Origin: Fructobacillus americanaquae
Lineage (GTDB): Bacteria > Bacillota > Bacilli > Lactobacillales > Lactobacillaceae
NCBI RefSeq assembly: GCF_024029775.1
Contig: NZ_CP097122.1
Span: 1,303,001-1,367,000 of the forward strand
Direction: 5' to 3'
DNA length: 64,000 nucleotides
Shown: positions 13,529 to 34,399 of the stretch, piece after piece
How the letters are laid out: every line of letters begins with the position of its first letter
Numbering within the stretch: position 1 is the first letter of the stretch
Notes under the pieces: generated by a model
What the model was told of the DNA's origin: nothing
The model's database searches: none
What the model saw: the letters and a program-made list of their open reading frames with translations, nothing else
Program-made: the position numbers and the translations under genes

Positions 13529-13688
13529 TGTTGAACAAGTAGGAGCACCCGCTTCTCGCCTCGTGACGATTGCTGTTGCTAGGCAGATACACGTTGTACT
13601 TTTTGTACAGTCAGGTAAAGTGGGTGAACTTCGGTTTGCCCATTTTTTTCTTCGTTGTTCACAACAAAATTTTTGGAGGTACCTAGCC
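13529..13688 (+). promoter_or_regulatory. L20-type attenuator leader of the infC operon
   Basis: The leader contains CACCCGCTT (13546-13554), which can pair over nine bases (one G-U) with AAGTGGGTG (13618-13626), the 5' arm of the downstream terminator. The two pairings exclude each other. Firmicute infC operons are known to be repressed by ribosomal protein L20 acting through such a leader, so L20 binding is the likely switch; that this particular leader binds L20 is inference. Confidence 0.7.
13617..13649 (+). terminator. Intrinsic attenuator within infC leader
   Basis: A 13-bp stem (13617-13629 with 13634-13646, including G-U pairs) is closed by a UUCG tetraloop and followed by a T tract. 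It is located 40 nt before infC. Confidence 0.85.
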
Positions 13689-26589: not shown

Positions 26590-26618
26590 TTGCTAAATGA
26601 GAAAAAACCGAGTACAAT
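26590..26618 (+). promoter_or_regulatory. Promoter of the guanine operon
   Basis: TTGCTA (26590-26595), 17 bp, then TACAAT (26613-26618) give a start near 26625, about 20 nt before the riboswitch aptamer. Confidence 0.65.
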
Positions 26619-26644
26619 TATCAATAATAATTTAAGAGAAATTT

Positions 26645-26708
26645 ACAGATATATCGCTGGAAAATGGCCAGCAGTCTCTACCGCGCCCCAAAAGTCGTGA
26701 CTATCCGT
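26645..26708 (+). promoter_or_regulatory. Purine (guanine-class) riboswitch aptamer
   Basis: The P1 helix is ACAGATA (26645-26651) with TATCCGT (26702-26708), one mismatch. P2 is GCTGG/CCAGC with a seven-base loop ending TGG. The J2/3 core is TCTACC, and the P3 loop contains CC for the loop-loop pairs. The ligand-specifying base, in GACTAT, is C, as in guanine/hypoxanthine sensors (U in adenine sensors). The element is placed before guaB and expected to shut the operon off when guanine is plentiful. Confidence 0.88.
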
Positions 26709-26733
26709 GAATGCCAATCAAGGTTTTTTGAGG

Positions 26734-26776
26734 GAGCATTTTGCGGAGCTGTGGTAGCTGCAAAGTGCTCTTTTTT
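26734..26776 (+). terminator. Riboswitch expression-platform terminator
   Basis: GAGCA.../...TGCTC closes an approximately 11-bp stem with G-U pairs, followed by six T. AATGC at 26710-26714 can pair with GCATT in the 5' arm (26736-26740) as an antiterminator adjacent to P1. Confidence 0.85.
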
Positions 26777-26810
26777 GGTCGATCTTGTAAGCAGGATGGT
26801 GAGGAGAATC

Positions 26811-27923
26811 ATGGCAGAATTTAAGATTAAAAATAAGTTCGTCCCAATGGGTTTGACCTTTGAAGATATGAAAATGGTCGCCAAAAATCAAGACGAAATT
26901 TCAGTTGATGCCGTTTCTTTGGAAACGGAATTGACGCCTACACTCAAGCTGAAGATTCCTTTGCTATCAGCCGCAATGGATACTGTCACAGAAGCTAATT
27001 TTGCCATTACCCTGGCACAGTTTGGTGGCTTAGGTGTTGTTCATAAGAATATGACAATCGCTGATCAAGCCGGTGAAATCAAGAAGGTGAAGGAACACCA
27101 AGTTGATTTGAATCAATTCCCCAATGCAGCTTTGGATGCCAAGGGGCGCTTGATTGTTGCCGGTGCCGTTGGGGTAACCAATGACACGGTGGACCGTGCT
27201 GGTGCAATGGTCGCTGCTGGTGCTGATGCCATTATTTTGGATTCTGCTCACGGTCAATCAGAAGGGGTTTTGCGTAAGGTTCGCGAAGTTAAGAATGCTT
27301 TCCCTGACGTCAACATCATTGCTGGCAACATTGCCACTGAAGGCGCTGCTTCTGATTTGTATGATGCGGGTGCTGATGTCGTCAAGGTTGGAATTGGACC
27401 TGGATCGATCTGTACAACACGTGTTGTTGCCGGAATCGGTGTACCACAGTTGTCTGCCATTCGCGATGCTGCTAAGGAAGCTAAGCGCCGTGGCAAGGCA
27501 ATCATTGCTGATGGTGGTGCTAAGACGCCCGATGACATCATGAAGGCTATTGCAATGGGGGGGAACGCCGTGATGCTCGGTTCAATGTTCTCAGGCACAA
27601 AGGAAACCCCCGGGGCAGTCTTTGAAGACAACGGACAGAAGTTTAAGTTTTACCGTGGTATGGGATCCATTGCTGCTATGGAAAATGGTTCAAAGGACCG
27701 CTACTTCCAGGGCGAAGTTAACGAAGCTAAGAAGATGGTCCCAGAAGGAATTGAAGCCCGGGTTGCCTATAAGGGTACTTTGGCTGACATTTTGTTACCA
27801 ATCTTGGACCACTTACGCAAGGAAATGGCCGAAATGGGTGTGCACAACGTGCAAGAAGCCATTGACCAGGCCGAAAACGTTGAAAAGACGACTGACGTCT
27901 TTGACTACCAGGCTTCTTTGTAA
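26811..27923 (+). CDS. guaB: IMP dehydrogenase, catalytic subunit-like (CBS-less, altered C-terminus)
   Basis: IMPDH oxidises IMP to XMP with NAD+, the committed step of guanine nucleotide synthesis. The protein is 370 aa against the usual 485-495. The CBS pair is absent: HKNMTIADQ is followed after a short linker by FPNAALDAKGRLIVAGAVG. The catalytic loop GIGPGSICTT has Cys201, ADGG is at 233-236, GSM near 257, YRGMGS at 281-286, and the flap Arg-Tyr at 297-298. The N-terminal LLVPA strand has become MKMVAKN, and the C-terminal GGLR-GMGY-G segment is the divergent DHLRKEMAEMG, with the cation-binding ESHPHD tail missing. Start ATG 26811 follows GAGGAGAATC; an in-frame ATG at 26664 lies inside the riboswitch. 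It leads the operon with its paralogue and guaA. Confidence 0.93.
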   Translation: MAEFKIKNKFVPMGLTFEDMKMVAKNQDEISVDAVSLETELTPTLKLKIPLLSAAMDTVTEANFAITLAQFGGLGVVHKNMTIADQAGEIKKVKEHQVDLNQFPNAALDAKGRLIVAGAVGVTNDTVDRAGAMVAAGADAIILDSAHGQSEGVLRKVREVKNAFPDVNIIAGNIATEGAASDLYDAGADVVKVGIGPGSICTTRVVAGIGVPQLSAIRDAAKEAKRRGKAIIADGGAKTPDDIMKAIAMGGNAVMLGSMFSGTKETPGAVFEDNGQKFKFYRGMGSIAAMENGSKDRYFQGEVNEAKKMVPEGIEARVAYKGTLADILLPILDHLRKEMAEMGVHNVQEAIDQAENVEKTTDVFDYQASL

Positions 27924-27958: not shown

Positions 27959-28918
27959 ATGACTGACATGAATACACGACATGGCTTGGGGTACGACGAA
28001 ACCCTTTTGGTCCCAGCAGCTTCAAACGTTTTGCCACATTTAGTCGACTTGAAGACGCATTTGGGCGTATTGGCGTTGAATAATCCATTGGCAGCTGCAG
28101 CAATTAATCCAGCTGCTAATCAACAAGAAGTTGTTTTGGCTGTGGCTCAATCTGGTGGATTGGGCTTGGTTGCTGCTAGTGAAGCTGTTGCAGATCAAGT
28201 GGCAGCTGTTGAAGCTGTGCGTGCCGCAACTGTTGATTTGGATCAGCACCCACGGACTTTGGCAACTGAAGATGGTCACGTGTCCGTTGGTGCTGAAATT
28301 TGGTTGGCCGCTGATGTGAAGGAGCGCGCATTGGCACTTGCTGGTGCTGGCGCTTCTGCTTTGTTCCTATATTTAAATGATGATTTGACGGCTGATATTG
28401 CCGCTGAAATTAAAGACTTGAAGGCGGCCTTGAGCCACGTTACTTTGGCCGTTGGAACCATTGAAGATCCTGCAGTTGCTAAGGAACTCTTCGACTTGGG
28501 TGTCGATGCCGTGATTGCTGGTCGTTCAGTTCATTCTGACTGGCCTGATGACATTCACTATCCATTCTTGACGACTGTGATGGGCATTGCTGAAGTGGCA
28601 GACTCAATGGATAAGACGGTTATCGCTCAGGGCGGTATCCATTATTCAGGTGATGTTGTTAAGGCTTTGGCCGGTGGCGCTAATTTGGTCATGGTCTCTG
28701 ATTACCTTGCCAAAGAAGACGTCGCTGAAGACGCTGTTTTCCAAATTGATGGTGGTTTACGGGCCGGAATGGGGTATACTGGTTCACATACGGTTGCTGA
28801 TTTAAAAGAGTCCGCACAATTCGTTCAAATCACAGATAACGGCTTGAAGGAATCACATCCGCATGATGTGGAAATCACTAAAAAAGCGCCAAATTACGTT
28901 GAACAGGAAAGAGACTAA
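27959..28918 (+). CDS. IMPDH-fold paralogue lacking catalytic loop and flap, with canonical C-terminus
   Basis: This 319-aa protein is an IMP dehydrogenase relative. It begins GLGYDETLLVPAASNVLPHL, close to canonical IMPDH, and ends GGLRAGMGYTG ... GLKESHPHDVEITKKAPNY, nearly identical to the normal enzyme. In between, the SxGGLG strand survives, but the Cys loop is replaced by VIAGRSVHSDWPDD (no cysteine), and the sequence jumps from GGANLVMVSDYL straight to VFQIDGG, deleting the roughly 55-residue flap with its Arg-Tyr. It should therefore be inactive alone. It lies 35 nt after guaB and 3 nt before guaA. It retains exactly the parts the guaB product has lost, which points to a partner subunit; this is inference. 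No CBS domain is present. Confidence 0.85.
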   Translation: MTDMNTRHGLGYDETLLVPAASNVLPHLVDLKTHLGVLALNNPLAAAAINPAANQQEVVLAVAQSGGLGLVAASEAVADQVAAVEAVRAATVDLDQHPRTLATEDGHVSVGAEIWLAADVKERALALAGAGASALFLYLNDDLTADIAAEIKDLKAALSHVTLAVGTIEDPAVAKELFDLGVDAVIAGRSVHSDWPDDIHYPFLTTVMGIAEVADSMDKTVIAQGGIHYSGDVVKALAGGANLVMVSDYLAKEDVAEDAVFQIDGGLRAGMGYTGSHTVADLKESAQFVQITDNGLKESHPHDVEITKKAPNYVEQERD

Positions 28919-34018: not shown

Positions 34019-34399
34019 AGCAGGTACCGAGTAATTGCGCATGATATTTCTCATGTGAGGAAGGTCCATGCTCGCACACTCTGCGATGGGTGTAGTGTTT
34101 GTGCTGGGATAAAAAATAAACCCAGGCATGGTGAAAACCATGACGGCGACTGAAATGGCTACGGCTTTGCTATGTCAAAATAGGTCTGAAAGTGCCATAG
34201 AAACGGATTCCTAGGTGAAAATTTAGGACTTGAGACGAGGTAAACCCCACAAGCGGGCAACCCAAACTTTGGTAGGGGCGGCTGACCTAGTGAACTGAAA
34301 TGATGGTCGGTATGGCGGCAACGCTTAGATAGATGATTACTGAAGGTGCTTAATCCCTGGTAAGTACTGGAACAAAACATGGCCTATAGGTACCTGTTA
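34019..34399 (+). ncRNA. rnpB: RNase P RNA (class B)
   Basis: This catalytic RNA trims tRNA 5' ends. The ends pair: CAGGTACC at 34021 with GGTACCTG at 34389. The conserved GAGGAAGGTCCATGCTCGC (P4/CR I), GGTAAACCCCACAAGCGGGC, AGATAGATGATTAC and ACAAAACATGGCCTATAG (CR V/P4 3' part) are all present in order. It lies after gpsB, as in other Lactobacillales. Ends are set by pairing, so they are approximate by a few bases. Confidence 0.95.

Follow-up and report, generated by a model that had tools for sequence, protein, structure and literature searches.

A guanine-class riboswitch precedes a putative heteromeric IMP dehydrogenase, apparently split at least twice, in Fructobacillus americanaquae and other lactic acid bacteria

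In the 64,000-nucleotide stretch of Fructobacillus americanaquae DNA analysed here (the window), a guanine-class purine riboswitch is followed by three genes, A, B and guaA, and the products of the first two both resemble IMP dehydrogenase (IMPDH). Our analysis makes it highly probable that A and B are obligate partners in a heteromeric IMPDH whose active sites combine residues of both, encoded in an operon that is switched off by guanine; the physical association of A with B, its stoichiometry and the inactivity of A alone are what we infer from the residue patterns. With only slightly less confidence, we consider that lactic acid bacteria have turned IMPDH at least twice into an obligate hetero-oligomer, made up of one catalyst and one subunit that only lends active-site residues, with nearly the same columns divided each time and the halves fused in two lineages, a naturally repeated example of complementary degeneration in a shared active site. 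In the proposed arrangement, A and B would be two diverged copies of an IMPDH without a CBS domain that together make one enzyme. Each working site would draw its catalytic portion from A and its lent portion from B. The subunits would probably alternate around a ring, such as A2B2, in which only A carries working sites.

Division of IMPDH residues between A and B

Genes A, B and guaA follow the riboswitch in this order, with intergenic gaps of 35 and 3 bases (Table 1). An earlier note on this DNA had described the order as guaB-paralogue-guaA, and this holds. The term paralogue is apt in that B is an IMPDH-like relative of guaB, but B is not a second working guaB, because it has neither the catalytic Cys nor the flap and is complementary to A. 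The flap Arg-Tyr pair has an established role in IMPDH. Candidate assignments of B as a GMP reductase or as a second IMPDH were rejected for the same lack of Cys and flap and because B met no NCBIfam cut-off. The nearest named relatives were Fructobacillus sp. EFB-N1 and F. tropaeoli (B 96% and 95% identical, respectively). A had a PF00478 domain in which the Cys loop, the Arg-Tyr flap and the Glu of an IMPDH were kept. The sequence GAGGAG at 26801-26806 precedes the start of A listed in Table 1, which is likely the true one. The longest open reading frame for A (26664-27923, 419 aa) opens at an ATG inside the aptamer, a start that automatic annotation could choose and that may result in misplacement.

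Table 1. Positions of the riboswitch, operon genes and selected residues in the window
Feature	Position	Strand	Basis
Promoter-like TTGCTA-17-TACAAT	26590..26618	+	One site, the number expected by chance; weak
Purine riboswitch aptamer	26627..26723	+	RF00167, 52.6 bits; covariation on 38 aptamers; P1 about 26641 to 26712
C at purine specificity position (C74 of xpt)	26701	+	Read from sequence; xpt numbering
AATGC, proposed antiterminator 5′ side, overlapping 3′ side of P1	26710..26714	+	Sequence, folds
Intrinsic terminator with T-run	26730..26776	+	Hairpin 26730-26774, T-run 26771-26776; -23.2 kcal/mol, z -5.06
GCATT, proposed antiterminator 3′ side, part of terminator stem	26736..26740	+	Sequence, folds
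Gene A, guaB-like putative catalytic subunit, 370 aa, without CBS domain	26811..27923	+	PF00478, 424.8 bits; own-site residues kept
Catalytic Cys201 codon of A	27411..27413	+	Alignment with IMPDH structures
Flap Arg297-Tyr298 of A	27699..27704	+	Alignment with IMPDH structures
Gene B, putative non-catalytic IMPDH-like subunit, 319 aa	27959..28918	+	PF00478, 164.6 bits; no Cys, no flap
B residues 22-26 (SNVLP), lent part of NAD adenosine pocket	28022..28036	+	Alignment; pocket residues from PMC4342496
B residues 259-313, conserved IMPDH C-terminal segment: GGLRAGMGY and ESH (K+ ligands)	28733..28897	+	Alignment; K+ ligands from PMC4594927
guaA, GMP synthase, 513 aa	28922..30463	+	NF000848, 791.6 bits against 400

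IMPDH is a textbook homotetramer. According to two structure papers, most of each active site comes from one subunit, and the neighbour lends C-terminal K+ ligands and the NAD adenosine pocket (PMC4594927, PMC4342496). The NAD adenosine sits on the adjacent subunit, where it contacts Ser-23′, Val-25′, Leu-26′, Pro-27′ and Ser-442′ (PMC4342496), and inhibitor complexes add the adjacent-subunit contacts Gly-444′ and the Tyr′ of IMSM. Using the lent and own assignments of these two papers, we scored ten lent sites and twenty own sites in 48 A/B loci and 24 single-gene IMPDHs. The 48 loci, near-duplicates included, came from Fructobacillus, Leuconostoc, Convivina, one unclassified strain and two genera labelled g18 and g19; 15 Leuconostoc rows entered this table, and all 19 Leuconostoc genomes were checked by motif. 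The DGG Asp, both flap residues (Arg and Tyr) and the Ba numbering of the IMSM Tyr were instead assigned from general background on the family. Canonical residues were drawn from the same 24 single-gene proteins, two of which are 492-493 aa, and the 100% score of these proteins is by construction.

The lent sites were kept at 480 of 480 positions in B and at 70 of 480 in A, so that most of the residues that an IMPDH lends to its neighbour, for the C-terminal K+ site and the NAD pocket, are missing from A. The own sites were kept at 958 of 960 positions in A and at 118 of 960 in B, where the Cys, the flap Arg and the flap Tyr were each found in 0 of 48 loci. Most of the own-site matches in B (93 of 118) fell in columns G300, S305 and G376, in all 31 Leuconostoc, Fructobacillus and Convivina rows. 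Residual lent sites in A of the same group were Val-25′ (16/31), Pro-27′ (12/31) and the K+ Glu′ (16/31). Sequences had been sorted by an RYFQ-type motif and length for A and by an ESH-type motif for B, and fused proteins had been cut at LL[VQ]PA.S.VLP. Because these selection motifs are some of the scored sites, which are therefore partly satisfied by construction, the count was repeated without the ESH and flap sites in the 36 loci with separate genes. Lent sites were then kept at 252/252 positions in B and 34/252 in A, and own sites at 646/648 in A and 84/648 in B.

Among 173 columns conserved in the 24 single-gene IMPDHs, only 5, 3 and 1 were lost in both A and B in three lineages, whereas independent loss would predict 25.0, 26.6 and 16.8 such columns (p = 5e-14, 8e-20 and 5e-11, respectively). 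Taken together, A and B carry nearly all of one IMPDH. The motif YSGD(V/I)VKA (including residues S237, G238 and V241 of locus L187) was retained by B in each of the three lineages but had been lost from A. We know of no role for this motif, which may mark an A-B contact.

Distribution, fusion and origins of the A/B division

A motif check found the same A/B division at 23 of 23 named loci and in all 19 Leuconostoc genomes. All 13 Fructobacillus genomes carried A and B, six of them as two genes and seven as one open reading frame of 674-678 aa, and the five g19 genomes all carried a fused form (685-706 aa). Among the 28 genomes of g18, 13 were split, 11 had a single gene and 4 had neither. These four (G137, G344, G371 and G388) contained guaA and gave no single-gene or split IMPDH match; three showed one weaker match (E about 1e-30) and G137 showed none. 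IMPDH is therefore dispensable in some relatives, and these four genomes may depend on salvage. A readthrough or fusion of A and B in g18, for which open frames of 687-703 aa had been reported in G379, G404, G418 and G422, was rejected, because A stops at TAG and B has its own start a few codons downstream. No further fused protein was found among the matches listed for 397 Lactobacillaceae genomes or, at E 1e-130, for 398 Bacilli genomes, in surveys that would not reveal every pair. In six g18 genomes (loci L181, L182, L183, L194, L195 and L196), tRNA genes of identical score flanked the split guaB locus, either on one side or on both; the locus could have been inserted at, or moved to, a tRNA site.

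In a quick tree of 267 core columns, A did not form one clade (AU p = 1.6e-63). The g19 A clustered with single-gene IMPDHs of other genera, and all non-g19 A formed one group (support 96) near the single-gene g18 proteins. The position of B was unreliable, with long branches meeting, and the count of origins therefore rests on A. With A not one clade and found in two placements, the tree requires at least two origins of the A/B split. The B-only columns numbered 34 and 31 in the two lineages, and 27 of them were common to both (p = 5e-21). The single-gene relatives L089-L101 and L179-L193 were mostly 376-437 aa as open reading frames and therefore too short for a CBS insert, and the split forms branched among these short single-gene enzymes. 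In the guaA tree, 12 split g18 genomes grouped together (support 83) and G256 lay elsewhere. This tree showed no single simple inheritance within g18, for which transfer, separate splitting and differential loss may all be candidates.

Function of B and alternative readings

AlphaFold2 modelled B as a barrel with unplaced ends (pLDDT 75, pTM 0.77), and all 50 PDB matches listed for this model were IMPDHs. The conserved ends, residues 1-26 and 289-319, had pLDDT <50 with an alignment of 21 rows; these low values fit a need for a partner, or may only reflect the 21-row alignment. A model of the fused A-B protein of F. fructosus gave pTM 0.53, a value that does not place the barrels relative to each other and neither favours nor counts against the heteromeric reading.

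The confident barrel of B, together with its three own-site columns kept in one group and the near-complete own sites of A (958/960), would also agree with a different reading, in which A works alone as a homomeric IMPDH whose K+ site and NAD pocket are altered or absent, while B is a regulator or sensor. We consider this unlikely, because the residues that B keeps (480/480) are exactly the lent ones lost by A, the same columns were involved in two separate origins, and A and B were repeatedly fused in the same order.

The score of A against the NCBIfam IMPDH equivalog was 402.1 bits, under the cut-off of 481.5, which could indicate that A or A plus B has switched to another reaction, for example a GMP reductase-like one or other IMP/XMP chemistry. 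However, that model spans 450 positions and A has no CBS part, which is the likely cause of the low score. A retains the Cys loop, the flap Arg-Tyr pair and the Glu, the genome has a separate GMP reductase, and the operon ends in guaA, the user of the IMPDH product XMP, all of which make a switch very improbable. That B is merely a decaying, functionless relic of a duplication is strongly disfavoured and scarcely credible: its own catalytic residues are gone, but B is under purifying selection (dN/dS 0.025-0.239 in 13 of 13 pairs; 0.019-0.155 for A), its C-terminal segment is invariant in the alignment, and it is present in 19/19 Leuconostoc and 13/13 Fructobacillus genomes.

The heteromeric IMPDH remains the preferred reading. 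No other IMPDH was found in a PF00478 search of the genome that holds the window, where the remaining matches were the GMP reductase (NF003966, 546.9 bits against 344) and a FabK-like protein (431.5 against 453.1). Should this cell convert IMP to GMP through a known IMPDH, the task must fall to A with B.

Predicted riboswitch control and comparison with known systems

The Rfam check proposed in the earlier note gave a full-length match of the window to the purine covariance model (RF00167, model positions 1-102 of 102), scoring 52.6 bits where the gathering threshold is 37, with E = 4.3e-6 for the whole window and 2e-8 for the leader alone. This was the sole RF00167 match in the 1.41 Mb genome. 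In an alignment of 38 aptamers (32 distinct), 87.6% of 767 cells paired, 14 of 24 pairs varied on both sides, and the covariation score was reached by 0 of 500 shuffles; a single P1 pair was broken in 31 of 32 rows. Folding energies of the whole leader (z -1.57) and of the aptamer alone (z -0.63) were unremarkable, and the aptamer call is based on the covariance model and covariation, not on folding energy.

The guanine subclass is recognised by C74 together with U47 and U51. In the xpt numbering, U47 falls at 26675, C48 (a U-to-C change) at 26676, U49 at 26677, U51 at 26679 and C74 at 26701, and the three subclass residues are all present. The C at the specificity base, the aptamer core and the L2/L3 GG-CC contact were as claimed, both GG-CC pairs being invariant in 32/32 distinct aptamers. 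The C in J2/3 in place of the usual U, which had been called tolerated, is present and alternates with T across relatives. The range 26645-26776 given earlier contains a real element but misses the beginning of P1 at around 26641. At the level of sequence, the window RNA is confirmed as a genuine guanine-class purine riboswitch with guanine or hypoxanthine as the predicted ligand, a further member of a well-known class and ordinary in itself. Elsewhere in the window, an RNase P class B RNA (34023-34391) and an L20 leader (13531-13655) were both ordinary. A second purine riboswitch match occurred elsewhere in G017, G018 and G029, with one of the two in G018 below the cut-off.

The terminator that had been described after the aptamer was borne out, as 0 of 200 shuffles folded as well as the 56-nt terminator piece (-23.2 kcal/mol, z -5.06); the hairpin was absent from the list of a simple terminator scan of the window leader. 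The competing AATGC/GCATT pairing was also present, and the leader cut at 26745 adopted this alternative pairing and no P1. An antiterminator that competes with a terminator and shares bases with P1 is the layout of an OFF switch, read here from sequence and folds. Bound guanine or hypoxanthine would hold P1 and bar AATGC from pairing with GCATT. With the antiterminator blocked, the terminator would form and GMP synthesis from IMP would be turned down. These features support a transcriptional OFF switch over A, B and guaA, with a predicted ligand response and presumed co-transcription.

A script detected a terminator in 23 of 25 leaders (none in L037 and L187). AATGC/GCATT recurred in leaders L035, L036 and L041, and as CAAATGC/GCATTTG in L056 and L192; for several others, the script, which takes the longest exact match, returned only other short matches of 4-6 bases, and conservation of the window pairing across all leaders is therefore not established. 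The riboswitch lay 5′ of A in 13/13 Fructobacillus genomes, 12/12 examined Leuconostoc, Convivina and L1_55_11 loci, and 12/13 split g18 loci, and before the fused gene in 1/5 g19 loci. Because it also precedes single-gene guaB in L187, L189 and G018, the switch is probably older than the IMPDH split, at least outside g19. At the g18 exception (L178, genome G404), no aptamer was found within 260 bases upstream of A. Just ahead of the gene, the L178 leader stops resembling the L174 leader, and its foreign part (L178:1-260) looks by eye like the beginning of a transposase gene on the opposite strand; the leader may be interrupted there by a mobile element or by a break in the assembly.

Guanine riboswitch control has been published for the S. 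aureus xpt-pbuX-guaB-guaA operon, which likewise has a guanine-class purine riboswitch over guaB and guaA (PMC2858708). The earlier claim of control over de novo guanine synthesis stands, with guaB-guaA downstream, but the view that this makes the element unusual was rejected, since S. aureus does likewise (PMC2858708). The window operon differs in having no xpt or pbuX between and in that its guaB is the pair A plus B. The GuaB homotetramers of V. cholerae, B. anthracis and M. tuberculosis share the family, the fold, the interface active site, and K+ ligands and an NAD adenosine pocket that come partly from the adjacent subunit (PMC4342496, PMC4594927). Both halves are on one polypeptide in those enzymes, whereas A and B carry them as separate proteins or as the two domains of a fusion. 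The closest relatives of A are single-gene IMPDHs of other Lactobacillaceae and g18, some of them behind a purine riboswitch, in which one protein has both halves. Human IMPDH1/2 and actinobacterial GuaB1/GuaB3 are further cases of more than one family member per genome, and differ in that they are not known to lack their own catalytic residues. In the open-licence PMC literature, we found no published split or heteromeric IMPDH and no B-like paralogue; the enzyme behind the riboswitch looks like an IMPDH variant unreported in that literature.

Isolated ancient examples are the usual basis for inferring how a homomer becomes a heteromer in which not every subunit is catalytic. The existence of close relatives with unsplit, split and fused forms of one central enzyme, with at least two origins and largely the same residues divided, would make this transition reconstructable and testable. 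For annotation, it matters that A is under the NCBIfam IMPDH cut-off and that B meets none. We also predict that, in these bacteria, any compound that spans two subunits of bacterial IMPDH would encounter an A/B interface.
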